Origin: Sphingomonas sp. 8AM
Lineage (GTDB): Bacteria; Pseudomonadota; Alphaproteobacteria; Sphingomonadales; Sphingomonadaceae
Reading direction: 5' to 3'
DNA: 64,000 nt
Assembly: GCF_902506455.1 (NCBI RefSeq)
Contig: NZ_LR733844.1
Coordinates: 1,622,224 to 1,686,223 of the forward strand
In this document: piece after piece, positions 42,649-56,540 of the stretch
Layout of the letters: each line of letters opens with the position of its first letter
How positions within the stretch are numbered: the first letter of the stretch is position 1
Notes under the pieces: generated by a model
What the model saw: only the letters and a program-made list of their open reading frames with translations
What the model was told of the DNA's origin: nothing
The model's database searches: none
Program-made: the position numbers and the translations under genes

Positions 42649-43806
42649 TCAGCTTTTTGTTGCCCGTGTGGCCTTTGCTTCAGCAGTCAGCACAAGCTCT
42701 GCTGCCAGCAACGCACCGGCCTGATCCTGCGCCACCGAGGTCCGCTCGACGAGGTCAATGATGAACTGCGGCCCGAACGGCAGCGGCACTTTCGAACAAT
42801 CAATGTAACGCGTGCCCTTCCGATCGGCGACGAACAGATGGTTGCCGCCCGGACGTCCGGCGATGTCGACATATTTCCGCAGTTCAATGTAGCCCTCGGT
42901 GCCGAGGATGAAGAGCCGCCCGTCGCCCCAGGTCGGCAGCCCGTCGGGCGTGAACCAGTCGACCCGAATATAGCCCGCTCCGCCATCGCCGTGGAGCATC
43001 ATGTCGCCAAAATCCTCGAATTTCGGATGGTCCGGATGCGCGAAATTGCCGGTTTGCGATGCCAGCACCTGCGCGCGCGTGCTGCCGGTCAGGTAGACGA
43101 ACTGGTCGGCCTGATGGCTGCCGACGTCAGTCAGGATGCCGCCATTGCGCGCCGGATCCCAGAACCAGTCCGGGCGGTTGGGCGCAGACACCCGATGCGG
43201 TGCGAGGTTGATCGTCTGGATGACGCGCCCGATCGCGCCGTCATGCACCATCTGCCCCGCCATCACCGCGGCGGGCACCTCCAGTCGTTCCGAATACATG
43301 ATCCCGTATTTGCGCCCGGTCTCCTTGATCGCGCGACGCACGTCAGCCAGCTGCGACAGCGTCGTTACCGCTGCCTTGTCGCTGAGATAGTCCTTGCCCG
43401 CGCGCATCACCCGGATACCGAGCGGTGCTCGCAGGCTCGGGACGGCCGCGCTGCACACAAGCTTGATTGCGCGATCCTGGAGGATTTCGTCCTCGCTTCG
43501 TGCCAGCTTCGCGCCCGGATAGCGTTTGCGGAAGGCGGCGATCTGCTGTGGGTCGGTAGCGAAGAAGCTGGTGAGCACCCCGCCCCCCCGGATCATCGCG
43601 TCGGTAATGCCGTAGATGTGATTGTGATCCATGCCGATCACCGCGAACGGCACCCGGTATTTCGCTTCGGGCGCCGGCTTGGCAACCGCGGTCTCGGTCG
43701 GCGCATCGCCGCGCGTGGCGGACTGCGCCAGCGCATCGCCCGCCAGCCCCATCAACCCGGCAGTCAGCCCCATGCCCAGCACAGCGCGGCGATCGGAATG
43801 CGTCAT
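42649..43806 (-). CDS. Tat-exported Gfo/Idh/MocA-family oxidoreductase (1)
   Basis: 385 residues. The N-terminus has a twin-arginine signal (SDRRAVLGMGLTAGLMGLAG). A Rossmann domain follows (VIGMDHNHIYGITDAMIRGG, an unusual variant of GxGxxG), with YLSDKAAVTT at the site of the usual EKP lysine motif. The C-terminal alpha/beta domain has LTDVGSHQADQFVYL. NAD(P) may remain tightly bound, as in exported glucose-fructose oxidoreductase. It is the last gene of the five-gene minus-strand operon and starts 13 bp after its neighbour. Confidence 0.87.
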   Translation of the reverse strand: MTHSDRRAVLGMGLTAGLMGLAGDALAQSATRGDAPTETAVAKPAPEAKYRVPFAVIGMDHNHIYGITDAMIRGGGVLTSFFATDPQQIAAFRKRYPGAKLARSEDEILQDRAIKLVCSAAVPSLRAPLGIRVMRAGKDYLSDKAAVTTLSQLADVRRAIKETGRKYGIMYSERLEVPAAVMAGQMVHDGAIGRVIQTINLAPHRVSAPNRPDWFWDPARNGGILTDVGSHQADQFVYLTGSTRAQVLASQTGNFAHPDHPKFEDFGDMMLHGDGGAGYIRVDWFTPDGLPTWGDGRLFILGTEGYIELRKYVDIAGRPGGNHLFVADRKGTRYIDCSKVPLPFGPQFIIDLVERTSVAQDQAGALLAAELVLTAEAKATRATKS

Positions 43807-43819
43807 GATATTGTCCCTC

Positions 43820-45082
43820 TCAAACCGTCACCAGCGACGTTGGCCATGTCTTTGCTTCGCCCTTGTCCATCGCCTGCTCGCCAAGCAGTGAGGCCACGCT
43901 GGCATGATAGGCCTGCTGCAACAGCCCCGGCAGCGGCTTGCCGGATCGTACCGCCTCGCCAAACCCCTCGAACTGCAGCATCGTCTCGTCATACTCACCC
44001 CAGCCGAGCGACTCCCCCGGGGTCGTCACCGGCAGCTCCGGAAACCATGTCGCGCCGCCGATCGGAATGGTCCGCTTGTGCCCGCGCTTCACGTCGGCCT
44101 GCATCCGCTGCAACGCCAGTGCGCGCGCGGGCACCTCCTGGTAGATGCGGCCCAGCTCGGGTTCGATCGTCCCCTTGCTGCCTTGTACCTGCTCCTCGCA
44201 CCCGTAGCGCGCATTGTTGAGCAGCGACGTGTAGATCACCTTCCGCCCACCGGCATATTCGTAGATCAACGCAACATGATCGTAGACTTCGCGGCCATCC
44301 TTCCAGAAGCAGATGCTGCCTGATCCGATCACCCGCGTCGGTACCGCATCGAGGAACCAGTTGCCGACCTGTAGTTGATGCGTTGCCAGCTCGGTCATCA
44401 ATCCGGCCGAGCTTTCACGATACAATCGCCAGTTGATCCGACGATCGTCACTGTCCGCCGGAACGGGGCGTCGCCACGCATTGTTGCGGTGCCAGCTGGC
44501 GCGGATTTGCGTCACGGTCCCGATCTCACCCGCCTTCACGCGCCGTAACGCGTTCAGATAGGTCGGGTGGAACATCCGCTGATGCCCGATCTGCAGAACC
44601 TTGCCACGGGCTCGCGCACGCTCGACCATCGCGCTGCAATCGGCGATCGTCCGCGCCATCGCCTTTTCGCACCAGACGTGCAGCCCGGCATCCATCGAGT
44701 CAAACGTGTGCTGCGCATGGCGATGAAGCGGCGTGGCGATCACGACAGCGTCCAGCCCGCGCGCATCGAGCATCGCGCGATGATCGCTGAACTCGGGCGT
44801 GCCCGCCGCTACCCACTGCCGCGCCTTGGCAAGATTGGGCGCATACGTGTCGCAGAGCGCAGCGACTCGGCAATTGCGCGTCTTGGCGATATTCTGGATC
44901 AGCGCACGCCCGCGGTCGCCGGTGCCGATCACGCCCAGACGCACCTTGCCGGCACCGGCGGTTTCCGCCCCGGCCGCCATGGCCACCCATGGCGTGGCGG
45001 TTGCCATCACGCTGCCCGCGCTGGCCGTCAGCACGCGGTCGAGAAACGTCCGGCGGCTCAGGTCGAAGGTCTTGTCGGTCAT
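43820..45082 (-). CDS. Tat-exported Gfo/Idh/MocA-family oxidoreductase (2)
   Basis: 420 residues with a Tat signal (LSRRTFLDRVLTASAGSVM). The dinucleotide motif is VIGTGDRGRALIQN, and the catalytic Lys motif is WCEKAMARTI. The C-terminal domain includes LMTELATHQLQVGNWFLD, the place of the conserved His. The ATG shares one base with the apbE-like stop (TGATG). Export through Tat implies that a folded, cofactor-loaded enzyme works in the periplasm. Likely chemistry is oxidation or reduction at a sugar C3, by analogy with the family. Confidence 0.88.
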   Translation of the reverse strand: MTDKTFDLSRRTFLDRVLTASAGSVMATATPWVAMAAGAETAGAGKVRLGVIGTGDRGRALIQNIAKTRNCRVAALCDTYAPNLAKARQWVAAGTPEFSDHRAMLDARGLDAVVIATPLHRHAQHTFDSMDAGLHVWCEKAMARTIADCSAMVERARARGKVLQIGHQRMFHPTYLNALRRVKAGEIGTVTQIRASWHRNNAWRRPVPADSDDRRINWRLYRESSAGLMTELATHQLQVGNWFLDAVPTRVIGSGSICFWKDGREVYDHVALIYEYAGGRKVIYTSLLNNARYGCEEQVQGSKGTIEPELGRIYQEVPARALALQRMQADVKRGHKRTIPIGGATWFPELPVTTPGESLGWGEYDETMLQFEGFGEAVRSGKPLPGLLQQAYHASVASLLGEQAMDKGEAKTWPTSLVTV

Positions 45083-45975
45083 CAAGCGAACATCCTGGTG
45101 GAGGCGGCGGACGCGAAATCGAACAGCATCCGTCGTTTGTCATCATGCAACCGTCGCGCGGCGACGTCATCCGCCACGATCAGGGCAGTACTCAACATCT
45201 CGGCCATTGCGCCGCTTCGGTCCACGACGACGGCCGTTCGCGGCGAAATAATGGGTGCTGACGCACCTGGCCGCAGCAGTGCCGCGCGCTCCGGAGCGGC
45301 GGTGCCGAACCCGACCGTCGCGGAAATCGACAGCGCCTCGTCGACCAGCTCGACCACGACCAGCGACCGCTCCGGATTGCGCGGATCGGGTACCGCGAGC
45401 GACCAGCTGCCGCCCAGGGGGTGCTCGCCGATTACCGCGATCGAACTCTCTCCGGCGGACAGCAGCGCGCACCCTACCCCCGCCGCGCGCAACGCCAATA
45501 CCGCAAGATCGAGGGCATAACCTTTTCCGAAGCCGCCGAAATCCAGCGCGACCGACGCGTCAAAGGCAATCGTCGCCGCGTGCCGGTCGAGCCGGATCCC
45601 CGCCCAGCCGACGGCATGTCGCGCATCGATGGTCGGATCGAAGAGCCCTTCGGTCGCAGCGCGCGCATCATCGATCCGGATCAGCGCGTCGAACAGGATC
45701 GGATCGGCGATCTTTGCGGTCTGCCCGGCGCGCAGCGCCTCGTTCATGGCGGTCGCTGGCGACGGGCGGTGGATCGTGAGCGTATCGTCGACCCGCTCGA
45801 TGGCATCCCGCGCGAGCGCCAGCGCGTCGGAGGCGCCGCCGCCGAAGCGATGCAGCTCGATCCGCGTGCCCATTGCAGCGAAACACAGCTCTCCGCTCGC
45901 GGGCAACGCGCCTGTCGAGGCCGCCTGCGGCGTCAGGCTTTGACTTCCCAACCGGGCTGGTAATCGACCGCCCAC
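45082..45975 (-). CDS. ApbE-like protein (FAD:protein FMN transferase family), divergent
   Basis: Up to 297 residues; GTG 45975, TTG 45951 and ATG 45873 are possible starts, all near the 45933 stop of the upstream gene. ApbE features are AAMGTRIELH, FDPTIDAR and DFGGFGKGYALD. Three conserved places differ: HxIDPRTG reads PIISPRTA, the metal-binding ADxxxTAL reads AEMLSTAL, and the ATSG turn reads ISATVG. No signal peptide is seen. ApbE enzymes attach FMN to exported redox proteins; here the altered residues leave activity uncertain. It is embedded in the Gfo/DUF1080 operon. Confidence 0.8.
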   Translation of the reverse strand: MGGRLPARLGSQSLTPQAASTGALPASGELCFAAMGTRIELHRFGGGASDALALARDAIERVDDTLTIHRPSPATAMNEALRAGQTAKIADPILFDALIRIDDARAATEGLFDPTIDARHAVGWAGIRLDRHAATIAFDASVALDFGGFGKGYALDLAVLALRAAGVGCALLSAGESSIAVIGEHPLGGSWSLAVPDPRNPERSLVVVELVDEALSISATVGFGTAAPERAALLRPGASAPIISPRTAVVVDRSGAMAEMLSTALIVADDVAARRLHDDKRRMLFDFASAASTRMFA

Positions 45976-47246
45976 AATTTCATCGCCTCCGGACTGGTCG
46001 GCTTGCCGGTCGAGGGATCGATCGTCAGCTCACTGTTGGTGCGATAGGCAATGTTGCCGAGGTGGCAGAGCGTTGTGCTGATATGCCCCTCCGCGATTGG
46101 CGAGGCCAGCGTCGACACATGGCCACGGATCACGTCGACGAAATTGCGGGCGTGATAGACATCGAGGACCCCTTCGCCGACCGTACCGGTGGTCTCGGAC
46201 GTCGCAGCAGCCTTGACCTGCCGGGTCGGCTTTCCAGCCAGATCGAACAACTCAAAGCCATTGCGGTCGACGACAGCCGACCCCTTGGTGCCGAGCAGCA
46301 GGACCCCGCGCCCCCGGCCATAAGCCTGTTGCGCGTTGCAGCTCTGCCCGTTCCAGCGGATCGCACGGTCGCCGTCGTAGATCAGGTCCAGCGCGAGCGA
46401 GTCGTACATCTCCCAGTCGTCGCCCTTGTGAAAACGCTTCGCTCCGCGCGCAACCACCGTCTTGGGATAGGTCAGCCCCATCAGCCAGCGCGCGACGTCC
46501 AGTTCGTGCATCGCATTGTTGCAGATCTCGCCGGTGCCATACTTCCAGAACCAGTGCCAATTGTAGTGGACGAGGTTCGAGCGATAGTCACCACGTGGTC
46601 GCGGACCCTGCCAGAGATCCCAGTTGAGGTTGGCCGGTGGCGCGACGACGCTGCCGTTGCCGATTGAGCCCCGATTGTTCGCGTACCAGGTCTGTGCCTC
46701 ATAGACGTCCCCTAGTTCCCCGGCGCGGATCAGCGCACCGAGCTGCTGCGTCTCCGGGCTCGAGCGCTGCTGGTTACCGACCTGTAGCTTGCGCCCGGTG
46801 CGCTTCTGCATGGCTATCAGCGCTTCACCCTCGGCGGGTGCGATACCGATCGGCTTTTCCAGATAGCAGTCGCGCCCGGCATCCATTGCATCGACCGCCA
46901 GCTTGGCGTGCCAGTGATCGGGAGTCGCCACCGTGATGATATCGACGCTCTTGCGATCGAGCAGCCGGCGGTAATCACCCTCGGTCTTCACACCGCTGTT
47001 GCCCTTGGCGGCGAACGCCGCGGCGCGCTTCGCGAGCACATCCGAGTCCACGTCGACGAGATGCGTGATCGTGACGTTCGGCTGTTTGGCAAAGGCGCTC
47101 AAATGCGCCTGTCCGCGGCCGTTGACCCCGACGACCGCGACGCGGAGCCGGTCGTTGGCGCCCTTGATCTGCGCATAGCTTCGCGCACTGATCGCGACAC
47201 CCAGCGCCGCACCGGCGCCGGTTAACATCGTTCGACGATCGATCAT
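45933..47246 (-). CDS. Tat-exported Gfo/Idh/MocA-family oxidoreductase (3)
   Basis: 437 residues with a Tat signal (IDRRTMLTGAGAALGVAISA). The coenzyme loop is VVGVNGRGQAHLSAF, the catalytic Lys is in CYLEKPIGIAP, and the C-terminal domain holds NNAMHELDVARWLMG with the conserved His and Asp. It is closest in layout to the GFO-like enzymes found beside DUF1080 proteins in Bacteroidetes and sphingomonads. The ATG overlaps the DUF1080 stop by 4 bp. Likely a periplasmic sugar or glycoside oxidoreductase. Confidence 0.88.
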   Translation of the reverse strand: MIDRRTMLTGAGAALGVAISARSYAQIKGANDRLRVAVVGVNGRGQAHLSAFAKQPNVTITHLVDVDSDVLAKRAAAFAAKGNSGVKTEGDYRRLLDRKSVDIITVATPDHWHAKLAVDAMDAGRDCYLEKPIGIAPAEGEALIAMQKRTGRKLQVGNQQRSSPETQQLGALIRAGELGDVYEAQTWYANNRGSIGNGSVVAPPANLNWDLWQGPRPRGDYRSNLVHYNWHWFWKYGTGEICNNAMHELDVARWLMGLTYPKTVVARGAKRFHKGDDWEMYDSLALDLIYDGDRAIRWNGQSCNAQQAYGRGRGVLLLGTKGSAVVDRNGFELFDLAGKPTRQVKAAATSETTGTVGEGVLDVYHARNFVDVIRGHVSTLASPIAEGHISTTLCHLGNIAYRTNSELTIDPSTGKPTSPEAMKLWAVDYQPGWEVKA

Positions 47247-48664
47247 CGGCTCATCCCTTTGAATTCACGAATCTTGATCGACCGGAAGTCGACGCGGTCG
47301 CCATGGTCCTGCAACAGGATCGGGCCCTGCGCGCGCTCGCCGAACTGCGGCCATTTGGCATACTTGCTTTGCGCCACCAGCGCCCGGAAAGCTGGTGATC
47401 CACGCTCATATTCCACGACCTTGAAGCCGTTGAGCCAGTGTTCGACATGATGGCCACGCGACACGATCACGGCGCGGTTCCATTCGCCCGGCGGGTTGAT
47501 CCGCTTGCCCGGGCTGTCGGGATCCGACAGGTTGCGGGCCGGGATGAGGTCGTAGAGCGAGCCGAGCGTGCGATTGCCGTCGCGGCCGCGCTTGGCATCG
47601 GGATGCCGCGCGTCGTCGAGAAGCTGGTACTCCAGCCCGATGGCCGACCCCTCGCCCTTCGACAGCGCCGGGTCGACGAAATATTTGATCCCGCTGTTGG
47701 CACCCTCCCTCAGCCGGAAATCCACCGACAGTTCAAAATCCCGGTATTCGCGGGTCGTGATGATGTCACCACCGTTGGTCGATTCCGCGCCGTTGGCGCC
47801 TTCCACGGTCAACAGGCCGTTGGCGATCGACCAGCCCTTCGCCGGAAAGCCGCTGCCCTTCGCCGCGGTCCAGCCGCTGGTACTCCGCCCGTCCCACAAC
47901 AGCTTCCAGCCTGCGCCGCGCTCGTCGTCGGACAATTGGTTCGAAAGCCAGCCCTGCTGCGGTATCCCGGTCGCCGGCCGCGCAAAGCGTGCCGGCCGAT
48001 CCGTGATCATCCGAACGTTGCGGAAGCGCGCCTCGGGGTGGCGTGCTGCGTCCGCGTCGGGGATGGCGTGCACCTGAAAGGCGATGAACCCGCGGGCGTC
48101 CATGTCATCGACGACGTCGGCGGCCGGCACGCCGTTGATCCACGTCCGCAGCCGATTACCGATCGCCTCGACACGATAGTGGTTCCAATCGCCCGAGCGG
48201 AAAGCCCGTCGCGCCGCTTCGTTGCGTCCAAGCGTATAGAGCCATTGTCGCCGCTGCTCGTCGTAAAGTCCGCCACTCCATGCCCGTTTCGAGGGATCGA
48301 TCTCCGCCTGGTAGCCGAAGACAACTCCATTGCGGTAGTCCGGGCGGCTCTGCCCCCGGATCATCACCCCTGAATTGAGCGCCGGATCGGTCTTCGCATC
48401 GAATTCGATGATGAAGTCGCCATATTGCGCGTCGGATACCAGCCAGCTGTTCGTCTTGCCCGGTTCGGCACGGCCGACCAACTCGCCGCCGGCGACATCA
48501 TAGGTCGCGTTGCCCCCGACCTTGTGCCAGCCGCCGAGTCCCGCGCGTGGGGTCACGTCGCGCCACGGCGCGCCTTGCCGCGCAGCTTGGGGCGGCCGGG
48601 CGGTGACGATGGTGGGCAGCGAGGTCGACAGCAATGCCCCCGCTACGAGTGTTCGGACCTTCAT
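47243..48664 (-). CDS. Exported two-domain DUF1080 protein (3-keto-glycoside hydrolase-like)
   Basis: 473 residues with a signal peptide (LVAGALLSTSLPTIVTA). Two concanavalin-like DUF1080 domains are visible: one at about 38-215 (YGDFIIEFDAKTDPALNSGV, FQVHAI) and one at about 245-470 (REYRDFELSVDFRLREGANSG, GEWNRAVIVSRGHHVEHWLNG). DUF1080 proteins are linked to hydrolysis of 3-keto-glycosides, so it may cleave the product made by the neighbouring oxidoreductases. First gene of the minus-strand operon; the ATG at 48664 is preceded by a TTG alternative. Confidence 0.87.
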   Translation of the reverse strand: MKVRTLVAGALLSTSLPTIVTARPPQAARQGAPWRDVTPRAGLGGWHKVGGNATYDVAGGELVGRAEPGKTNSWLVSDAQYGDFIIEFDAKTDPALNSGVMIRGQSRPDYRNGVVFGYQAEIDPSKRAWSGGLYDEQRRQWLYTLGRNEAARRAFRSGDWNHYRVEAIGNRLRTWINGVPAADVVDDMDARGFIAFQVHAIPDADAARHPEARFRNVRMITDRPARFARPATGIPQQGWLSNQLSDDERGAGWKLLWDGRSTSGWTAAKGSGFPAKGWSIANGLLTVEGANGAESTNGGDIITTREYRDFELSVDFRLREGANSGIKYFVDPALSKGEGSAIGLEYQLLDDARHPDAKRGRDGNRTLGSLYDLIPARNLSDPDSPGKRINPPGEWNRAVIVSRGHHVEHWLNGFKVVEYERGSPAFRALVAQSKYAKWPQFGERAQGPILLQDHGDRVDFRSIKIREFKGMSR

Positions 48665-48782
48665 CAAGCACCCTGCCCTGTTGCGAGGCCCGGACGCGAA
48701 CGCCCGAACCGTTTTGTGACGGGTGCCATTGCACCTCTCCCGACACTGAGCCTAGGTCGCGGCCCGACCACTTGCAATAGAC

Positions 48783-48793
48783 ATGTCAGACAT
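48783..48793. promoter_or_regulatory. Candidate FadR/GntR operator upstream of DUF1080 and the regulator gene
   Basis: Perfect dyad ATGTCAGACAT between the divergent DUF1080 and gntR genes. It fits the FadR-subfamily pattern T-GT-N3-AC-A. It lies 76 bp before the regulator start and 118 bp from the DUF1080 start, so it could control both. Confidence 0.5.
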
Positions 48794-48869
48794 TGGCGAC
48801 CGCCTTACGTTAGGCTAGGGTCACATCCCGGCGTCGCAACGGTCGCCTGCGGACGAAACAGGACGATCG

Positions 48870-49616
48870 ATGCGGAAGACAGAGAGTGGCGGCAAATTGT
48901 ACCGCGGGATTGTCGACGCGATCATGGCTGACGTCGCCGACGGCATCTACCCGGTCGGGACGCGCCTGCCTGCCGAACGCGACCTGACCGAGCGCTTCGG
49001 GGTAAGCCGCCCCACCGTCCGCGAAGCGATGATCGCTTTGGAGATGCAGGGGATCGTCGAAGCACGCAAAGGTTCGGGCGTTTTCGTGCTCGCGACCGGA
49101 GCAGTCGATGCGAGTCGCGAGCTCGACATCGGCGCGTTCGAGATCACCGAGGCACGGCGATTGCTGGAGGGCGAGGTGGCCGCGGTGGCCGCCACCGAGA
49201 TCGATACGGCGCAACTCGCTGAACTCAGGTCCTTGCTCGCCCAGATGGAGCAAAGCGACGTGTCGGCCGCCGAGGATGCCGACCGCCGCTTTCACATCGC
49301 GATTGCCGAAGCGACCGGGAATGCGGTCATCATCGCTGCAGTCACCGATTTCTGGGACATGCGCTTTCGGTCGCCACTTGCGCGCGAGGTGCTCGTGAAG
49401 GCGGGCAGCCTCGGAACCGAGAGCCGGATGGCGGAACACGGCCGCATCCTTGCCGCGCTGGAGGTGCGTTCGCCCGTCGACGCGCGCAATGCGATGCGCG
49501 ACCATCTCTCGCGCGTGATCGACCATCTGCTCGACGTCACCGAAACCGAAGCAGTCGAGCGCGCACGCGCGGAAGCCACGCAGCGCCGCCATGCGCTTGC
49601 CCGTCGTGCCGTATGA
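48870..49616 (+). CDS. FadR/GntR-family transcriptional regulator with FCD domain
   Basis: 248 residues. The N-terminal winged helix (about 8-76) includes GTRLPAERDLTERFGVSRPT and ARKGSGVFV. The all-alpha FCD domain follows, with the likely metal ligands in RRFHIAIAEATGN, AEHGRIL and RDHLSRVIDHL. FCD members typically bind sugar acids, keto acids or other small carboxylates. The ATG at 48870 has AGGA 6 nt upstream. Position between the two arms of the utilisation locus makes it the local regulator, probably a repressor. Confidence 0.92.
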   Translation: MRKTESGGKLYRGIVDAIMADVADGIYPVGTRLPAERDLTERFGVSRPTVREAMIALEMQGIVEARKGSGVFVLATGAVDASRELDIGAFEITEARRLLEGEVAAVAATEIDTAQLAELRSLLAQMEQSDVSAAEDADRRFHIAIAEATGNAVIIAAVTDFWDMRFRSPLAREVLVKAGSLGTESRMAEHGRILAALEVRSPVDARNAMRDHLSRVIDHLLDVTETEAVERARAEATQRRHALARRAV

Positions 49617-49627
49617 AATCGCGGTGA

Positions 49628-49653
49628 GCATTGTCAGCATGGACTGACAATGC
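49628..49653. promoter_or_regulatory. Perfect 10-bp inverted repeat upstream of the TonB receptor, candidate operator
   Basis: GCATTGTCAG (49628-49637) and CTGACAATGC (49644-49653) are perfect arms with a 6-bp spacer. It lies 12 bp after the gntR stop and 96 bp before the receptor start. A further CTGACAAC occurs at 49657-49664. The TGTCAG half-site recurs in the dyad at 48783. A terminator hairpin for gntR is the alternative, but there is no T-run. Confidence 0.55.
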
Positions 49654-49748
49654 TACCTGACAACTAGGTAAGGACGCGTTCGGCGGACTGTCACAAGGCA
49701 GCAGCCGTTTTGCACAATGCAGCGCGCCAGCCGGCAGGGAGAGGGCTT

Positions 49749-52748
49749 TTGTCCAGTCAGCACCGCTACAAGCGCCATCTGTACGTCTCAATCAGCCTGA
49801 TAAGCATGGTCGCCGCTGCGCCGATCCGCGCGCAGACCAATGCACAGGCGCCCTCCCCGGCCGCTGCAGATCAGGATCTGCCCGAGGGCCAGGTCGCCGA
49901 CATCGTCGTCACCGGCTTCCGCGCCGCACTGAACAACGCCCTTAACCAGAAACGGAACGAAACCGCGGCAATCGACAGCATCGTCGCGGAGGACATCGGT
50001 AAATTCCCCGACTCCAACCTTGCCGAGTCGATGCAACGCATCCCCGGCGTCGCCTTGTCGCGCGGCGACGGCGGCGAAGGTCGCAACATTTCGGTTCGCG
50101 GGTTGGGCGCGCAATTTACGCGAGTCCGCATCAACGGCATGGAGGGTGTATCGCAGGTCAGCGGCAGCGATATCCGCGGTGGCGTCGCCACCGGCCGCTC
50201 GTTCGACTTCGTGACCTTCCCGACCGAGATCTTCTCGGCGTTGTCCGTGCGCAAGACGATGTCCGCCGACGTCGAGGAAGGCTCGCTTGGCGCGACCGTC
50301 GACCTGCGTGCACCACGCCCGTTCGACCAGAAGAAGGACTTCGTCCTTTCCGGAACGGCGCGCGGCATCTATAACGACATCAAGAAGGACGTCGACCCGC
50401 GCCTGTCGGCGATCGTCTCGAAGAAGTTCGGCGATACGTTCGGCATCCTTGGCAGCGTTGCCTATTCGAAGCGGCGGATCGACGAATACGCCTATTCGGC
50501 TGTCGACGTCGTTCCGACCTATGTCTACGGGCAGGCCGCCCCCAACGGTGCGCCGAATGCGGGCGTGATCTTCCCGTTCTGCACCCCGGTGGGCTACAGC
50601 TACAACGGCGCCGCCACGACCAGCCCGGTGCCGGGCTACGCCCAGCCCAACGCGGTCGCGATCGGTGCGGACGCCAATAATTGCAGCGCCGGCAATCCGC
50701 GTACCGGCACCGCCGCAGCGTATGATTACATCATGAGCCGCACCGGCGTCAGCGGCCGCCCTGGCGGCGGCGTCTTCCTGCCGCGCCTGCCGCGCCCGGT
50801 GAAGAGCAGCCAGGACCAGCAGCGCCTCGCCGGCACGCTCACCTTGCAGTGGAAGCCGAGCGACAACACCGACATCTCGCTCGACGGCCTCTACTCGCGC
50901 TTCAAAGTCGACCGGCTCGACGCCTATTTCGATGCGCGGTCGTTCGGGCGGGCGATCTCCAATAACGGTCAGCCGCTTACCTCGGTGCGCGAGATCGAGG
51001 TCGACGACAATGGCTCGCTGATCCACGGCCTGTTCGATGGCGTCGATCTGCGCTCGGAGATGCAGCAGGAGCGGTTCACCTCCGAATACCGGCAGGCCAA
51101 TCTCAATTTTGACCATCGCTTCTCGGACAAGGTCCGGCTGTTCGGTCTTGTCGGCATCAACGAATCCCGTCTTGATGTGGACCGTCTTCAAGTCGCGGTC
51201 GATTCGAACGACACGCGCGACTGGTCGATCGACTTCCGCGACAATCCCGACATTCCGAAGATCGGTTACGGGATCGACACGACCAACCCCGCACTGTTCC
51301 GCTACGGGCCGCCGCTCACCAACGGCGACCAGCAGGGGCAGCTGTCGAATTTCATCCGCCGCAACGTCATCCTCAGCAAGACCTTCGAGCTGAACGGCGA
51401 ATGGGAGGCCGCGCACGGCTTTACCGTCGTGGCTGGCGGCCAGTATCGCACCAACAGGTACACCGCGCGGGAACGCCAGCTGGGCACGACGACGCCGCTG
51501 ACCCTGCCCGCCGGCGTGTCGATCGCCGACTTCACCTATACCACGAACGGCATCGGCAAGAACCTTGACGGGCAGCTTCAGGACTTTGTGTCGGTTGATC
51601 CGATCAAGTTCCGCAACGCGGTGGGTCTCGACGATTACGCCTATTGCAGCATCGAATGCGCGCGCGGGACGTACGGCGGCGTCGATGAAAAGTACAAGTC
51701 GGGTTATCTGATGGTGCGCTTCGATACCAAGGATGTGCTGCCGTTCGGGCTCCGCGGCGACGCCGGTGTTCGCTACGTCCACACCGATCTCGATACGTAC
51801 GGGCCGATCACCACTGCCGCGCCGGCCGGTTCGACCTATTCGTCGCGGTTCGTGATTTCGGAAGTTAGCCGATCGTATGAGGATTGGTTGCCGGCGGTAA
51901 ACCTCGCACTGGATATCACCCCCGAGCTGATCGCGCGCTTCTCGGCAGCGCGCGTGATGTCGCGGCCATCGTACGGCCAGCTCATCCCGGCGGGATCGGC
52001 GAACCTCGTCATTCAGACGGCCTCGTTCAGCAATCCATTTCTCGACCCGATCCGGGCCAACACGATCGATGCCGCACTGGAGTGGTATTTTGCGCCGGGT
52101 TCGCTGGTCTCGCTCGGCTATTTCTACAAGAACATCGAAACCTACATTCAGGCGCTGCCGCAGCTGGTGCCGTTTCAGGATATCGGCCTTCCGCTTTCGC
52201 TGCTGACCGGCACGCAGTTGCGCCCGACCGACCTGTTCAGCGTGCAGCGCAACGTCAACACCCCTGGCGGGCCGCTGCGCGGCTTCGAGGTCAACGTACA
52301 GCTGCCGTTCCGCTTCCTTCCCGGCGCGCTCAGCAACTTCGGCGCGCTCGGCAACTTCACCCGCGTTCGCTCGAACATCACGTACCTGCTTGGCAACGGC
52401 CGGACTCGCGTGGCGCCGCTGGTGGGCCTGTCGGGCGAAACCGCAAGCGGCACCCTCTATTACGAGGACAGCAAGTTCAGCATCCGCTCGACGGTCAATT
52501 ACCGTTCGCCGTTCCTGACGGCAGTCCCGAGCGGCTCGGTTGATGCGGATGCCTCCGTGAACGCCAGCTCGATCTTCGTCGATGCCTCCGCCTCGTACAA
52601 TCTGACGGAAAACATCAAGCTGATCGCCGAGGTATCGAACATCACCAACGAGACCAATCGGCTTACGGCCGACACCGTTCGTCAGGACCCGCTCTACACC
52701 GCCTATTTCGGGCGCACTTACGCGCTTGCGATCAATTTCCAGCTCTGA
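49749..52748 (+). CDS. TonB-dependent receptor of the utilisation locus
   Basis: 999 residues from a TTG preceded by GGGAGAGG with 5-nt spacing (the in-frame TTG at 49710 has no such site). The signal segment is YVSISLISMVAAAPIRAQ. The plug domain, about 50-195, has ESMQRIPGVALSRGDGGEG and ISVRGLGAQFTRVRINGME, typical of the large Caulobacter/Xanthomonas-type receptors that import carbohydrates. The barrel ends in FGRTYALAINFQL. It should take up the substrate later processed by the periplasmic enzymes of the locus. Confidence 0.93.
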   Translation: MSSQHRYKRHLYVSISLISMVAAAPIRAQTNAQAPSPAAADQDLPEGQVADIVVTGFRAALNNALNQKRNETAAIDSIVAEDIGKFPDSNLAESMQRIPGVALSRGDGGEGRNISVRGLGAQFTRVRINGMEGVSQVSGSDIRGGVATGRSFDFVTFPTEIFSALSVRKTMSADVEEGSLGATVDLRAPRPFDQKKDFVLSGTARGIYNDIKKDVDPRLSAIVSKKFGDTFGILGSVAYSKRRIDEYAYSAVDVVPTYVYGQAAPNGAPNAGVIFPFCTPVGYSYNGAATTSPVPGYAQPNAVAIGADANNCSAGNPRTGTAAAYDYIMSRTGVSGRPGGGVFLPRLPRPVKSSQDQQRLAGTLTLQWKPSDNTDISLDGLYSRFKVDRLDAYFDARSFGRAISNNGQPLTSVREIEVDDNGSLIHGLFDGVDLRSEMQQERFTSEYRQANLNFDHRFSDKVRLFGLVGINESRLDVDRLQVAVDSNDTRDWSIDFRDNPDIPKIGYGIDTTNPALFRYGPPLTNGDQQGQLSNFIRRNVILSKTFELNGEWEAAHGFTVVAGGQYRTNRYTARERQLGTTTPLTLPAGVSIADFTYTTNGIGKNLDGQLQDFVSVDPIKFRNAVGLDDYAYCSIECARGTYGGVDEKYKSGYLMVRFDTKDVLPFGLRGDAGVRYVHTDLDTYGPITTAAPAGSTYSSRFVISEVSRSYEDWLPAVNLALDITPELIARFSAARVMSRPSYGQLIPAGSANLVIQTASFSNPFLDPIRANTIDAALEWYFAPGSLVSLGYFYKNIETYIQALPQLVPFQDIGLPLSLLTGTQLRPTDLFSVQRNVNTPGGPLRGFEVNVQLPFRFLPGALSNFGALGNFTRVRSNITYLLGNGRTRVAPLVGLSGETASGTLYYEDSKFSIRSTVNYRSPFLTAVPSGSVDADASVNASSIFVDASASYNLTENIKLIAEVSNITNETNRLTADTVRQDPLYTAYFGRTYALAINFQL

Positions 52749-52755
52749 CCCACGG

Positions 52756-54042
52756 ATGCCGATGACCGATCAGCGACCTGCACCGCTAAAGGCCGGCGGC
52801 AACATCCGCTGGGTGATTTGCGCCCTGCTGTTTTTTGCCACGACCATCAACTACATCGATCGGCAAGTCATCGGCATCCTCAAGCCGACGCTCCAGTCGG
52901 AGCTTGGCTGGTCCGAGATCGACTACGGCACGATCGTCTTCTGGTTCCAGGCCGCTTATGCGATCGGCCTGCTGGCGTGCGGGCCGATCATCGACAAGGT
53001 CGGCTCGAAGCTCGGCTATGCCGCCGCGATCACCTTGTGGAGCGTCGCGGCCATGGTCCACGCGCTGGTGCGCAGCCCCGGCGGGTTCGCCATGGCCCGC
53101 TTCGCCTTGGGCCTCGGTGAATCCGCCAACTTTCCGGCAGCGATCAAGTCGGTGGCGGAGTGGTTTCCCAAGAAAGAGCGTGCGTTGGCTGCGGGCATCC
53201 TCAACGCCGGCGCCAATGTCGGCGCGATCGCAACGCCGATCGTCGTGCCGATGATCGCGCTCAGCTACGGGTGGCAGGCGGCCTTCCTCATCACCGGCGC
53301 GCTCGGTTTCCTCTGGCTGGCGGCGTGGCTGCTCTTCTATCGTGCTCCGGCCCAACATCCCCGCGTCGGAGCGCAGGAGCTAGCCTATATCGCCGCCGAT
53401 CAGGACAATGACGCCGGCACCGAACCGATCCGCTGGTCGCAACTGTTCCGCCGCCGCGCGACCTGGGCGTTCGTCATCGCCAAGTTCCTTACCGATCCGG
53501 TCTGGTATCTGTTCCTCTTCTGGCTTCCCGATTTCTTTGCCAAGCGCCACGGGCTTGACCTCAAGACCTTCGGCCCCCCGCTGATCGCGGTCTATCTGCT
53601 CGCCGACGTCGGCAGCATCGGCGGCGGCTGGCTGTCGTCGGCGCTCATCAAGCGCGGCTTCAGCGTCAATGCGGGACGGAAACTCGCGCTGCTCGTTTCC
53701 GCGATCCTCGTGACGCCGATCGTCTTCGCCAGCAGCGTATCGAGCCTGACCGCCGCGGTAGCGATCATCGGGCTGGCGGCCGCCGCGCATCAGGGCTGGT
53801 CGTCCAACCTCTACACGATGGTGTCCGACACCTTCCCGCGCACGTCGATCGCCTCGGTGATGGGGATCGGCGGGGCGGCGGGCGCGATCGGCGGGATGAT
53901 TATGGCGAAGTACGTTGGGCAGGTGCTTGAGACGGTAGGGACCTATGTGCCGGTGTTCCTGTGGGCTGGTAGCGCCTACCTGATCGCTCTTTTGCTCGTC
54001 CACCTGCTGGTGCCGAGGCTCGATCGCAAAATCGCCAGCTGA
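52756..54042 (+). CDS. MFS transporter, ACS family (hexuronate transporter ExuT-like)
   Basis: 428 residues with 12 predicted membrane helices. The ACS signature is clear: NYIDRQVIGILKPTLQSELG in the first helix region and ALGLGESANFPAAIKSVAEW. ExuT, GarP and related proteins take up hexuronates, aldonates or similar acids by proton symport. Two ATGs (52756, 52762) are possible. It starts 7 bp after the TonB receptor stop, so the two form one transcript. An uptake system for an acidic or 3-keto sugar is the favoured role. Confidence 0.9.
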   Translation: MPMTDQRPAPLKAGGNIRWVICALLFFATTINYIDRQVIGILKPTLQSELGWSEIDYGTIVFWFQAAYAIGLLACGPIIDKVGSKLGYAAAITLWSVAAMVHALVRSPGGFAMARFALGLGESANFPAAIKSVAEWFPKKERALAAGILNAGANVGAIATPIVVPMIALSYGWQAAFLITGALGFLWLAAWLLFYRAPAQHPRVGAQELAYIAADQDNDAGTEPIRWSQLFRRRATWAFVIAKFLTDPVWYLFLFWLPDFFAKRHGLDLKTFGPPLIAVYLLADVGSIGGGWLSSALIKRGFSVNAGRKLALLVSAILVTPIVFASSVSSLTAAVAIIGLAAAAHQGWSSNLYTMVSDTFPRTSIASVMGIGGAAGAIGGMIMAKYVGQVLETVGTYVPVFLWAGSAYLIALLLVHLLVPRLDRKIAS

Positions 54043-54073: not shown

Positions 54074-54097
54074 CCTCTACCTCTACCTCTACCTCTA
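54074..54097. repeat. Hexanucleotide repeat CCTCTA x4
   Basis: Four perfect copies of CCTCTA lie between the MFS gene and glpK. The last copy contains the glpK stop codon (TAG on the minus strand). Copy-number change would alter only the 3' flank. Confidence 0.9.
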
Positions 54098-55591
54098 GCT
54101 TCTCGCGGTCAGCGTCTTGGCAAGCGCCGCGTGCCAACCGGACGCGAGGATTGCGCGTGCCTCGTCCGGCATCTTCGGCTCGAAGCAGGCAGCGCGCGCC
54201 CAGGTTGCCGTCAAGGCGTCCAGATCCTTCCAGACTCCTGTCGCCAGCCCGGCGTGAAACGCAGCCCCGAGCGCGGTCGTCTCCAGATGCCGCGGCCGCT
54301 CGACCGGGACCTGCAGCATGTCGGCGAGGAACTGACACAGCCAGTCGTTCGCCGCCATTCCACCGTCGACGCGGATCGTCGCCGGCGGTTCACCGCCATC
54401 GGCGACCATCGCGTCCGCCAGATCCATCGTCTGATAACCGACCGCCTCCAGCGCGGCCCGCGCCAGATGCGCCTGCGTCGAGCCGAGCGTCAGCCCGAAG
54501 ATCGCGCCGCGTGCATCCGGATCCCAGTGAGGCGCGCCGAGCCCGACGAACGCCGGGACCATATAGACGCCGTGACTGTCGGGGACCTGCGTCGCCATAT
54601 CGTCGGTGTCGCGGGCGTGGGTGATGACGCCGATCCCGTCCCGCAGCCATTTTACCGCCGCGCCGGCAATGAAGATCGACCCCTCCAGCGCATAGGTCAC
54701 CTTCCCATCCAGTCGGTAGGCCGGTGTGGTCAGCAATCGATGCTCGGATGCGACCGCTTCCGCACCGGTGTTGAGAAGCATGAAACAGCCGGTACCATAG
54801 GTCGATTTGACCATTCCCGTCGCGAAACACGCCTGCCCGAACAGCGCCGCCTGCTGATCGCCCGCGACGCCGGCGATCGGGATCGCAGCGTCGAACAGCC
54901 CGTTGGCGGTGTGGCCGAAGATATGGCTGTTGTCGTGCACTTCGGGCAGCATCGCCATCGGCACGTCAAACAGCGCGCACAACGCCTCGTCCCAGCGCTG
55001 CGCATGGATGTCGTAGAGCAAGGTGCGGCTGGCATTGGTGATGTCGGTCGCATGCACCGCGCCGTTGGTCAGCCGCCAGAGCAGGAAACTGTCGATCGTG
55101 CCGAACGCCAGCTCGCCTCTCTCCGCCCGTTCCCGCGCACCTTCCACATGATCGAGGATCCACGCCAGCTTCGTCGCCGAGAAATACGGGTCGAGCAGCA
55201 GCCCGGTCTTCGCACGCACGACGCGCTCGTGCCCTTCTTCCTTCAATCGCGCGCAGAGTTCGGCGGTACGCCGATCCTGCCAGACGATTGCGTTGTGGAT
55301 CGCTGCGCCGGTCGCGCGATCCCATACGACGACCGTCTCGCGCTGGTTGGTGATACCGATCCCTGCGATGCCCTCCGCACCAACGCCGCTCTGCCGGATC
55401 GCCTCGCGCGCCGTGTCCAGCGTGTCGCGCCAGATGTCCTCGGGATCGTGCTCGACCCAGCCGGGATGCGGGTATTGCTGCGCGAACTCGCGCTGCGCGG
55501 TCGCGACCGGTCGCGTGTCGACGCCGAAAACGATCGCCCGCGTCGACGTCGTGCCCTGATCAATCGCGAGAATATGCTGCGGACCCGCCAC
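54095..55591 (-). CDS. glpK: Glycerol kinase
   Basis: 498 residues, FGGY kinase family. It phosphorylates glycerol to glycerol 3-phosphate. Motifs: [14 protein letters not shown] at the start, [13 protein letters not shown], the catalytic region [13 protein letters not shown], and [18 protein letters not shown]. The GTG at 55591 has a GGAG site and gives a length close to the 502 residues of E. coli GlpK; longer in-frame starts run into glpF. The stop lies in a CCTCTA repeat. It follows glpF by 17 bp. Confidence 0.95.
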
Positions 55592-55608
55592 GTCTGTCTC
55601 CTCGATTG

Positions 55609-56403
55609 TCAGTTGCGCGCGCGCGGCGGCAGGTAGGGCCGCACGAGATATTGGTAGATGGCGGCGCCCGTCACCCCGCCGACCAGCGGCCCCGCGATCG
55701 GCACCCACCAGTAATTACCGGGCCCGGGCAGCGCAGAGTCGCCCCAGCCCATCAGCCAGCAAAAGAGCCGTGGGCCAAAGTCGCGCGCCGGATTGATCGG
55801 CCATCCCTCCAGATAGCCCGCCGACGCACCGATGCACGCCACGAGCAAGCCGATGATCAGCGCACTGGCATTCGCCATCGGCGCCTGGGTGTTGAACTCG
55901 TCGGTGATCGCGAAAATACCGAGCAGCAGGATCGCGGTCAGCACCACTTCGTCCCAGAACGCGTGGGCCCGGGTAATATGCGCGCCCGGCGCGGTGAAGA
56001 ACACGCCTGCTGCGCCACCAGCGGCGCGGGTCAGGCCGTGTGCGCTGTTATATGCCTCGATCACCGGGCCGAACAATTGGTAGACCAGCGCCGCGCCGAT
56101 CATCGCGCCGACGATCTGCGCCGCCACGTAAGGCAGGATCTTGCGTTTCGGGAAATCTCGGAAGATCGCGAGTGCGATCGTCACCGCCGGGTTGGCATGC
56201 GTGCCGGACACGGCACCGGTTACATAGATCGCCAGCGTCACGGCCAGTCCCCAGGCGATGCACACGCCCCAATAGGCGGTCGCATAGGGACTTGGATCGT
56301 AGAGGATCAGCATCGCCGCGGCGGAGTTGCCAAGCGTGATGATGATCGTCACCGCCAGTGCCTCGGCGATCAGTTCGCCCCTGAAGCCATGCTGCCGCGC
56401 CAC
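55609..56403 (-). CDS. glpF: Glycerol uptake facilitator (aquaglyceroporin)
   Basis: 264 residues, inner membrane MIP-family channel with six helices. The two half-helix motifs are [12 protein letters not shown] and [11 protein letters not shown]. The Asp after the second NPAR and the wide pore layout are typical of glycerol facilitators rather than water channels. The GTG at 56403 has GGGGAGG about 6 nt upstream. It is cotranscribed with glpK and divergent from glpD. Confidence 0.94.
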
Positions 56404-56540
56404 GTACCATCCTCCCCACGCGCCTCATGGGGGCGCTGTGCGATACCTTCCTATGTTTGCGAGCAAGGTCAATGCCGGTTTGAAGCGCAGCCTGAACTTG
56501 CCATATGTTGGCCCGACCCAACCGTTATGAGGCGCTTCCC

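Follow-up and report, generated by a model that had tools for sequence, protein, structure and literature searches.

Sphingomonas sp. 8AM carries a locus that probably serves the use of D-glucuronides by an oxidise-cleave-reduce route, in which an ApbE-like protein would be the dedicated partner of the exported Gfo/Idh/MocA oxidoreductase G2. The locus most likely represents the known 3-keto-glycoside route of DUF1080 and Gfo proteins in a version for glucuronides. Plant xylan would most likely supply its substrates, as glucuronic acid side chains or as aldouronic oligosaccharides.

Gene content of the locus

The locus occupies positions 42649-54042 of the window, the whole 64,000-nucleotide stretch of DNA that was analyzed. 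Its eight reading frames are open at the positions listed below, and in a Pfam scan each of the eight proteins matches the family after which it is named.

42649..43806, minus strand: G1, Tat-type Gfo/Idh/MocA protein, 385 aa (Pfam)
43820..45085, minus strand: G2, Tat-type Gfo/Idh/MocA protein, 421 aa, ApbE-linked (Pfam, comparisons, AF2 model)
45082..45975, minus strand: ApbE-like protein, 297 aa from GTG or 263 aa from ATG 45873 (Pfam, alignment, AF2)
45933..47246, minus strand: G3, Tat-type Gfo/Idh/MocA protein, 437 aa, glycoside 3-dehydrogenase-like (NCBIfam, PDB)
47243..48667, minus strand: two-domain protein of the DUF1080 / 3-keto-disaccharide hydrolase family, 474 aa (PF06439 twice)
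48758..48772, plus strand: candidate operator, imperfect TGTGGYCNGACCACA with 3 mismatches, in the divergent promoter region (shared sites)
48870..49616, plus strand: GntR/FCD regulator, ExuR/UxuR-like (Pfam, NCBIfam)
49710..52748, plus strand: TonB-dependent receptor of the Xanthomonas-Caulobacter type (TIGR01782, 613.7 bits, above the cut-off of 310)
52726..54042, plus strand: MFS transporter of the galactonate/hexuronate group (TIGR00893, 244.1 bits, below the cut-off of 395)

The three Gfo/Idh/MocA proteins, the two-domain DUF1080 protein, the ApbE-like protein and the large TonB receptor named in the preliminary description are all borne out by the scan, with three GFO_IDH_MocA matches, two PF06439 stretches within one protein, an ApbE match of 90.4 bits, and plug and barrel domains. 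The regulator, described as FadR-type, has GntR and FCD domains and can be placed more sharply: its best two NCBIfam matches are ExuR (130.9 bits, cut-off 396) and the Uxu operon regulator (116.5 bits, cut-off 442), both below cut-off. The transporter, called ExuT-like, is an MFS_1 protein; scores below the NCBIfam cut-offs apply alike to the 3-dehydrogenase, ExuR and D-galactonate-transporter subfamilies. None of the eight scanned proteins is a classical glycoside hydrolase, as had been noted, but this holds only for these coordinates. Relatives pair the module with GH115, GH51-type, GH43 or GH92 genes, and the route therefore seems to work alongside hydrolases instead of taking their place.

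Oxidoreductases and the DUF1080 protein

G1, G2 and G3 each combine Rossmann and C-terminal Gfo domains in Pfam, with the Rossmann model alone scoring 23.1 in G1, slightly below the cut-off of 24. The twin-arginine motifs that open the three proteins, DRRAVLG, SRRTFLD and DRRTMLT, were identified by eye, as was the RR motif present in most ApbE-linked relatives of G2. In G1, the sequence VIGMDHNH replaces the glycine-rich loop, and the K/D/H catalytic positions are present by eye. The solved structures nearest to G1 are 3u3x (346 bits) and 2p2s (327 bits), whose titles say no more than oxidoreductase or putative oxidoreductase. G2 starts at TTG 45085 or ATG 45082 and has CEKA in place of EKP. 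Its AF2 model (pLDDT 79.9) has the glucose-fructose oxidoreductase (GFOR) 1rye as its best PDB match and also matches the glucuronide-3-dehydrogenase 8tdi (E 9.6e-20). The best PDB matches of G3 are 8tdf/8tdh, and its best NCBIfam match is NF058561 (BT_2158_fam), at 131.6 bits against an equivalog cut-off of 750; G2 reaches 77.6 bits in the same family.

The DUF1080 protein matches PF06439 with 276.9 bits (gathering cut-off 26.8) over two stretches, which in the genome also appear as two separate matches. The N-terminus of the protein looks secretory, and its two-domain layout is that of the solved structure 4jqt (506 bits). From its membership of PF06439, the protein plausibly hydrolyses a 3-keto-glycoside.

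Among the closest known systems is the 3-keto-disaccharide pathway reported for Bacteroides thetaiotaomicron BT2157-BT2158 (Nasseri et al. 2024). As in that system, where BT2158 is a periplasmic Gfo glycoside 3-dehydrogenase (PMC11300592) and BT2157 the PF06439 protein of the pathway (PMC9007349), the locus joins a Gfo protein with a PF06439 protein, and G3 and GfoB score best against the BT_2158 family. The window differs in its glucuronate context, two-domain DUF1080 protein, three Gfo proteins, ApbE-like partner and scores below the equivalog cut-off. The lactose route of Caulobacter, as outlined in PMC9007349, likewise has an alphaproteobacterial DUF1080 protein, CCNA_01705, proposed to be periplasmic and to act after an oxidation step. 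There the membrane-bound LacABC carries out the oxidation, whereas in the window Gfo proteins would take this step and none of its eight scanned proteins is LacABC-like.

The P2B11 glucuronide-3-dehydrogenase (8tdi), by its title a Gfo-type enzyme acting on C3 of glucuronides, resembles G2 in fold, but by sequence it matches G2 with just 45 bits and G3 with 29 bits. We know of no ApbE link for this enzyme and, to our knowledge, the GFOR of Zymomonas has neither a DUF1080 nor an ApbE partner. GFOR, the best fold match of G2 at about 20% identity, is an exported Gfo enzyme with a bound cofactor and a redox-neutral cycle (PMC4628093).

Conservation of the core genes

A search for the same gene set in other genomes, which the preliminary description had proposed, shows that the core of DUF1080, G3-type Gfo, ApbE and G2 genes recurs in Sphingomonas, Porphyrobacter, Ignavibacteriota and, in altered order, Bacteroidota. 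The gene set is thus more than a chance assembly. One of the loci, L016, derives from almost the same species as the window and does not count as independent support. A plasmid origin of the locus was considered and rejected: relatives on four plasmid records have less than 45% identity, and none of these records is from Sphingomonas.

In 13 of the 26 loci of the G2 clade no DUF1080 gene was found in the fetched stretch, a point against the favored glucuronide route. Several enzymes, such as the oxidoreductive sulfoquinovosidases and GH4/GH109, use a single active site to oxidise, eliminate, hydrate and reduce, and one of the Gfo proteins might similarly be an NAD-dependent glucuronidase to which the DUF1080 protein is accessory. 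The 13 stretches with G2 and ApbE genes without a DUF1080 gene are consistent with this arrangement, as is the match of the G2 model, among many others, to the NAD-dependent glycoside hydrolases 8qc2/8qc5. We nevertheless consider it rather improbable, as a DUF1080 gene is present in each of the six fetched G2 loci of sphingomonad type (L011, L016-L019 and L021), single-domain in L011, and the gene stays with G3 and G1 in L010, where G2 and ApbE are gone.

Glucuronate context

Comparative genomics upholds the assignment of the locus to glycoside or uronide utilisation and directs it to glucuronides. In Sphingomonas sp. UV9, the genes form the contiguous series MFS-UxuB-UxaC-UxuA-TBDR-regulator-DUF1080x2-G3-ApbE-G2-G1, and in Porphyrobacter TH134 the series DUF1080x2-G3-ApbE-G2-UxuB-UxaC-regulator-ManD-KdgK-MFS. 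UxuA or ManD genes lie inside the fetched stretch in 5/26 loci of the G2 clade and 1/55 others (Fisher p 0.012); further cases are L010 and L023, which has the end of a UxuA gene at the contig end. The UV9 counterpart of the transporter (L104:6693-7985, 798 bits) adjoins UxuB-UxaC-UxuA; from this neighbourhood and its family, the MFS protein is predicted to be an ExuT-type hexuronate carrier.

It is quite doubtful that the glucuronate context is coincidental and that the locus really acts on some other glycoside of plants or microbes, because uronate genes recur with the module in Sphingomonas, Porphyrobacter, Alistipes and another member of the Bacteroidia. Such a coincidence would agree with the position of UxuA-UxaC-UxuB-KdgK in the genome of 8AM, at about C2:551.3-556.2 kb and some 1.1 Mb from the locus, and with the contexts of other relatives: GH92 and sulfatase genes in Persicobacter and a beta-N-acetylhexosaminidase gene in Spirosoma. 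Alistipes (L032) has an amidohydrolase and a NagB-like gene (assigned by eye) alongside its uronate genes. As the contexts in Persicobacter, Spirosoma and Alistipes differ, the module in itself is not specific to glucuronides.

GH115 enzymes act on (4-O-methyl)glucuronosyl side chains, and GH115 genes lie near the module in L011, which has two, and in a Bacteroides finegoldii record, in further support of the glucuronate link. Alternatively, the oxidoreductases could remodel a uronate instead of cleaving a glycoside, for example 4-O-methyl-glucuronate or a sugar acid that GH115 sets free, with the DUF1080 protein cleaving a minor substrate. This idea is grounded in gene context, and we regard it as very unlikely.

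The candidate operator is shared with L021 (no mismatches), L010 and L017 (one each), L019 (two) and L016 (three), the consensus being derived from these sites. An operator common to the locus and the UxuA-UxaC cluster of the same genome was rejected, since the best matches in L102 have three mismatches and lie away from the cluster. A scan for TGGTn1-5ACCA found no site in the intergenic regions of the locus.

Linkage of the ApbE-like gene to G2

The preliminary description missed that the ApbE-like gene is more than a chance neighbour: the protein is atypical, and its gene is tied to one Gfo protein across phyla. It lies near G2 in 24/26 G2 loci from five phyla, compared with 3/55 loci of more distant homologues. 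The two G2 loci without a nearby ApbE gene are L038 and L031, whose contig begins just upstream of G2. In several phyla the G2 and ApbE genes overlap or almost touch. The locus of genome G110 lacks both genes and keeps DUF1080x2-G3-G1-UxuA, and the whole genome is without ApbE. The apparent G2 match in L010 is a cross-match with G3, and place-by-place comparison shows no G2 there. A counter-example is a Spirosoma plasmid, on which an ordinary membrane-type ApbE with the GGE motif adjoins a relative of G2. Every G2 residue shared by 85% or more of the ApbE-linked proteins also occurs among the unlinked ones; the strongest contrast is 0.87 versus 0.15.

The ApbE-like protein is thus a near-obligate partner of one exported oxidoreductase, apparently undescribed in the literature searched. 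In a full-text search no relevant paper names both ApbE and Gfo, the sole co-mention being a seaweed paper unrelated by its title, and a search on ApbE and glucuronate gave no mention of ApbE among the matches listed. An ApbE survey removed genes without a signal peptide in a focus on extracytosolic systems (PMC8238504), and would thus have missed the ApbE-like group.

Structure and possible function of the ApbE-like protein

The AF2 model of the ApbE-like protein (pLDDT 86.6) has an ApbE fold, with ApbE 5mgy as the best PDB match (E 9.4e-15) and further matches to 7esb, 3pnd and 6nxi. The window copy contains the motifs GESS and AEMLST. The subfamily has GxS[ST/A] where ordinary ApbE has GG[E/D], and its triad Asp is mostly Glu. 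Of 20 stretches fetched for comparison, L110, L115, L121 and L124 held the loci's own copies and were excluded. From a set of 16 ordinary ApbE proteins, L112, L117 and L120 were left out because the frame taken was antisense, and L122 and L123 were removed after the GxS[ST] motif was found in both.

The catalytic triad of Vibrio ApbE is Ser241, His257 and Asp285 (PMC12052999), and the positions aligned with it in the window copy hold Ser, Ala and Glu. Among the locus copies, Ser is kept in 28/28 and His in 20/28, and Asp is changed to Glu in 22/28. His is lost from the window copy, its five nearest relatives (L016-L019 and L021), L020 and L026. The copies that retain it include that of G057 and six deep-branching ones, which also keep Asp. 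The fold and the retained residues are compatible with a true flavin transferase, which in the cytosol would attach FMN covalently to G2, or to a different exported protein encoded in the cluster, for electron transfer to the membrane. Cytosolic flavin transfer by ApbE is known for Klebsiella fumarate reductase (PMC12052999). This function is unlikely for the ApbE-like protein, given the loss of His in these copies, the change of Asp to Glu in most, and the absence of a residue separating ApbE-linked from unlinked G2 proteins. Moreover, the flavinylation motif [D/N/E/S/T]xx[S/T][G/S/A]A[S/T] is not conserved across 27 G2 proteins, occurring only as STTSGAS in two (L031 and L034); [S/T]GA[S/T] is absent from all eight window proteins; and no FMN_bind or DUF2271 domain was found in the 8AM genome, nor a second ApbE.

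No strongly hydrophobic N-terminus that could be an export signal or lipobox was seen in the window copy or the 24 relatives read, the starts of which are uncertain. We infer that the protein is cytosolic. The missing export signal is not decisive against an ApbE function, because cytosolic ApbEs exist. Compared with the ApbE and Ftp flavin transferases (PMC12052999, PMC4767422 and PMC8238504), the protein shares the fold and the conserved Ser and Lys, but differs in showing no export signal, in its GxS[ST/A] motif, His lost in the window's group and Asp replaced by Glu in most copies, and in its linkage to Tat-Gfo genes instead of the target domains published there. With the catalytic His gone from the window copy and its five nearest relatives, a role in assembly or cofactor loading is likelier there than flavin transfer.

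Proposed pathway

In the favored glucuronide pathway, the TonB receptor would bring the oligosaccharide into the periplasm, and a Tat-exported Gfo protein carrying firmly bound NAD(P) (G3, possibly joined by G2) would oxidise C3 of the glucuronosyl unit. The glycosidic bond weakened in this way would then be cut by the DUF1080 protein. A second Gfo enzyme would reduce the 3-keto-uronate back and regenerate the bound cofactor, so that a periplasmic NAD(P) pool would not be needed. Oxidation, cleavage and re-reduction are plausible from knowledge of the families and from the fold likeness of G2 to GFOR and 8tdi. Glucuronate would be imported by the ExuT-like transporter and broken down by the UxuA-UxaC-UxuB-KdgK enzymes encoded elsewhere in the genome, and the ExuR/UxuR-like regulator would sense a uronate. 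The ApbE-like protein would act in the cytosol as the partner of G2, before G2 is exported.

A more speculative proposal, to which we assign a low likelihood, is that the GxS[ST] ApbE-like family is a cytosolic system that equips Tat-exported Gfo/Idh/MocA oxidoreductases with a cofactor. It would bind a dinucleotide and, ahead of export, fix a flavin or nicotinamide nucleotide on the partner Gfo protein, by a covalent tether or by irreversible loading. If true, this would account for the activity of nucleotide-dependent sugar oxidoreductases in a compartment that has no free NAD(P) pool, and it would add a novel way of installing cofactors post-translationally, spread over at least five phyla.

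Carbohydrate biology has only recently come to include the breakdown of sugars by oxidation and cleavage with Gfo and DUF1080 proteins. The locus suggests a glucuronide-specific form of it, which in relatives is joined directly to glucuronate catabolic genes. The pairing of an ApbE-like protein with an exported Gfo protein makes it testable how nucleotide-dependent enzymes are equipped for work beyond the cytosol.

Organization and distribution of the locus

The eight genes and protein families named in the preliminary description are all present in the window and match in Pfam and NCBIfam.

42649-43806, minus strand, G1, Tat-type Gfo/Idh/MocA protein
43820-45085, minus strand, G2, Tat-type Gfo/Idh/MocA protein
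45082-45975, minus strand, ApbE-like protein
45933-47246, minus strand, G3, Tat-type Gfo/Idh/MocA protein
47243-48667, minus strand, DUF1080x2, two-domain PF06439 protein
48758-48772, palindrome-like site TGTGGYCNGACCACA, 3 mismatches
48870-49616, plus strand, GntR/FCD regulator, ExuR/UxuR-like
49710-52748, plus strand, TonB receptor
52726-54042, plus strand, MFS transporter

The minus-strand genes are transcribed in the order DUF1080x2, G3, ApbE-like, G2 and G1, with overlapping or closely spaced ends, and the regulator, TonB receptor and MFS genes run in the opposite direction. The flanking genes are seemingly unrelated: TatD-like and metallo-hydrolase-like on one flank, glycerol kinase on the other (names assigned by eye). 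Positions 54095-58058, adjoining the locus, carry genes for glycerol kinase, an aquaporin-type facilitator and glycerol-3-phosphate dehydrogenase; a glycerol-kinase-like gene likewise adjoins the locus in L016, from nearly the same species (both by eye).

The palindrome-like sequence TGTGGYCNGACCACA occurs with 0-3 mismatches between the DUF1080 and regulator genes of the related loci L021, L010, L017, L019 and L016. This recurrence is only suggestive of regulation, because the consensus was derived from these same sequences.

At E 1e-60, 3 of the 199 family genomes searched contain a match to DUF1080x2 (one spanning the second domain only), as do 2 of 385 genomes from the class, own genome included in both; for G2 the figure is 2 of 298 family genomes. 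The locus is therefore sporadic. A scan of genome contigs with a two-row G2 alignment covered the best 80 of 567 confirmed loci. The search for the same gene set in other genomes, proposed in the preliminary description, recovered the full set in Sphingomonas sp. UV9 (L021/L104) and the DUF1080x2 module with uronate genes in Porphyrobacter sp. TH134 (L018).

Predicted chemistry of the Gfo and DUF1080 proteins

PF06439 proteins have been tied to 3-keto-glycoside cleavage, namely BT2157 and, through mutant fitness, CCNA_01705 (passages of PMC9007349), and the periplasmic protein BT2158 is reported to be a glycoside 3-dehydrogenase (passages of PMC11300592). The top NCBIfam match of G3 is the BT_2158 family (131.6 bits, not reaching the cut-off of 750), and its top structure matches are 8tdf and 8tdh. 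A protein of solved structure, 4jqt, has the same two-domain layout as DUF1080x2 and matches it with 506 bits across 438 residues. The structure nearest in fold to the predicted G2 model (pLDDT 79.9) is Zymomonas GFOR, 1rye (E 2.1e-21); the model also matches 8tdi, titled glucuronide-3-dehydrogenase, and the NAD-dependent glycoside hydrolases 8qc2 and 8qc5. GFOR is exported and keeps its cofactor bound through a redox-neutral cycle (passages of PMC4628093). By analogy, cofactor recycling at the locus could use a bound cofactor in a redox-neutral cycle.

Elsewhere in the same genome (L013:9705-12915, C2 at ~3.16 Mb), a further DUF1080 gene adjoins a gene for a 565-residue flavoprotein-like product that by eye resembles GMC/LacA-type oxidoreductases. 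The genome may thus have two kinds of 3-keto route.

Linkage of the ApbE-like gene to G2

Linkage was counted within fetched stretches, with the G2 clade comprising L011 and L016-L040. An ApbE gene is present in 24 of the 26 clade loci, compared to 3 of 55 others (L053, L054 and L056; Fisher 3.7e-15, which overstates independence because the loci share ancestry). The clade loci without ApbE are L038 and L031; the G2 match of L031 starts 168 bases into its contig, and the related L034 has ApbE directly upstream. The linked clade loci span Pseudomonadota, Ignavibacteriota, Balneolota, Bacteroidota and Armatimonadota, to which L053 and L054 add Planctomycetota. In the locus of genome G110, G2 and ApbE are both gone and DUF1080x2, G3, G1 and UxuA are kept; a search of that genome for ApbE found none anywhere.

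An ~80-residue conserved protein follows G2 in many Bacteroidota loci (L024:11278-11523, L196:9278-9520 and nine others), and none was seen in sphingomonad loci. It starts with an MKDI[IV]IT-type sequence and apparently has two membrane-spanning helices; nothing in Pfam matches the L024 copy. It is possible that it serves as a membrane anchor or electron link.

Sequence features of the ApbE-like proteins

Residues were named after the Vibrio enzyme (passages of PMC12052999) and placed by sequence alignment. At the GG[E/D] position, Ser (GxS[S/T/A]) stands in all 28 locus copies; the 11 ordinary ApbEs compared, encoded by the same genomes, all carry Glu or Asp. In the Ser-His-Asp triad of ApbE flavin transferases, Ser is present in 28 of 28 locus copies. 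The Asp is replaced by Glu in 22 and retained in six deep-branching copies (L037, L039, L040, L053, L054, L056). The His is missing from eight (window, L016-L019, L021, L020, L026). G057, which belongs to the window's family, retains the His in its copy (L011), and loss of this residue is therefore not general in sphingomonads. Locus and ordinary ApbEs are strongly clustered in the tree (3 changes versus 11.2 in shuffles) without forming one clade; the "ordinary" copies L122 and L123, also GxS[ST], are placed beside locus copies. N-terminal hydrophobicity (highest 12-residue mean before the core) reaches at most 1.59 in 25 locus copies, versus 1.5-2.8 in 9 of 11 ordinary ApbEs; the low values of the other two, L109 and L119, probably come from open frames starting far upstream.

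Relative to L016, dN/dS is 0.23 for the ApbE-like gene versus 0.03-0.08 for seven neighbour genes. In pairs with dS close to saturation, its value is highest or nearly so against L021 (0.35) and L017 (0.25; TonB receptor 0.27), and equals that of G1 against L019 (0.30). The gene thus evolves faster, with its frame intact and still under purifying selection. Judged from sequence, this selection and the lost His favour a role in binding or assembly over flavin transfer in the window's group.

The window's genome and G579 contain no ApbE besides the locus copy, no FMN_bind domain and no DUF2271. In sphingomonad genomes that also have an ordinary ApbE (G057, G580, G581, G582), DUF2271 lies ~1 kb from the ordinary gene, away from the locus. 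A search of 22 genomes for FMN_bind gave ten with the domain, all of them Bacteroidota, and almost every Bacteroidota genome in the set also has an ordinary ApbE. Genomes with these known substrates thus have an ordinary ApbE available to serve them. A full-text search for ApbE and Gfo together, with subscription literature mostly outside its scope, returned no relevant paper. Passages of the eLife ApbE survey (PMC8238504) describe removing genes without signal peptides when focusing on extracytosolic flavinylation.

Neighbourhoods of GxS[ST] ApbEs

L122 and L123, found via Pfam alone in genomes chosen for having a G2 locus, cluster with Tat-type Gfo genes (stretches L125 and L126). Searches with the ApbE-like profile covered 299 Pseudomonadota genomes and 99 genomes of G585's phylum, and the best 60 loci were considered, 30 per search, with many weaker matches beyond. 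Besides three known loci, GxS[ST] occurs among them in G987, G1041 and G971, all clustered with a G2-like Gfo gene, as is a second Bacteroides xylanisolvens copy (L187; genome chosen for its G2 locus). The remaining 54 loci, all lacking GxS[ST], have no Gfo gene within ~1.5 kb at E 1e-5, and relaxing the threshold to E 1e-4 adds a single 40-bit match, in L182. The comparison is uneven, because it took a 17 kb stretch to show the Gfo gene of G971, which lies ~5 kb from ApbE, while longer stretches, of 12-13 kb, were read for just five of the 54 (again without a Gfo gene). Four plasmid records contain a G2 relative, and in each an ApbE gene belongs to the same run of genes; three of these ApbEs are GxSS, and the fourth, from Spirosoma, is an ordinary GGE membrane type and an exception to the association.

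The Isosphaeraceae locus L054:7653-11404 has the order ApbE, DoxX-type membrane protein, Tat-Gfo. In L056:9983-14402, L126:1430-8704 and L195:1431-8755, Tat-Gfo and GxS[ST] ApbE genes cluster with a membrane protein that by eye is glycosyltransferase-like. L056 also encodes an F5/8-type C domain protein, and L126 has what by eye is a similar protein.

Glucuronate context and other uses of the module

The UV9 order is MFS-UxuB-UxaC-UxuA-TonB receptor-regulator-DUF1080x2-G3-ApbE-G2-G1. In TH134, the genes after the module are UxuB, UxaC, the regulator, ManD, KdgK and an MFS transporter. Of these, UxaC (572, cut-off 387) and ManD (743, cut-off 550) exceed their NCBIfam cut-offs, whereas UxuB and KdgK are best matches under theirs. 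UxuA is carried by L010, L019 and L025, the L010 copy exceeding the uxuA cut-off. In fetched stretches of unequal length, UxuA or ManD occurs in 5 of 26 G2-clade loci versus 1 of 55 others. Next to DUF1080-ApbE-G2-Gfo, G057 (L011) has a pair of GH115 genes together with a GH51-type arabinofuranosidase gene, and a Bacteroides finegoldii record is publicly annotated as GH43-Gfo-small protein-Gfo-DUF1080-"FAD:protein FMN transferase"-GH115. Given these uronate-gene and GH115 neighbours, the substrate in the window's lineage is most likely a glucuronide. The own genome has UxuA-UxaC-UxuB-KdgK at ~C2:551.3-556.2 kb, the window lying at 1.62-1.69 Mb.

Alistipes L032 carries UxuA, a PRK08277 D-mannonate oxidoreductase (371.7, cut-off 281) and a KDG-kinase-like protein. 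An amidohydrolase and, by eye, a NagB-like gene lie there as well, and the combination would suit a substrate containing both uronate and amino sugar. The second G2-ApbE set of B. xylanisolvens XB1A (L187:5096-14637) comes with Oxidoreduct_C-type and G1-like proteins and with amidohydrolase-like and NagB-like genes (the last two by eye); it closely resembles L032, suggesting an amino-sugar-containing substrate. The module occurs with GH92 and a sulfatase in Persicobacter and with a hexosaminidase in Spirosoma, and is put to other uses in other lineages.

The gene content of the locus and of its relatives points to a glucuronide-utilisation form of the Gfo/DUF1080 route, with an ApbE-like protein as near-obligate partner of one Gfo protein.
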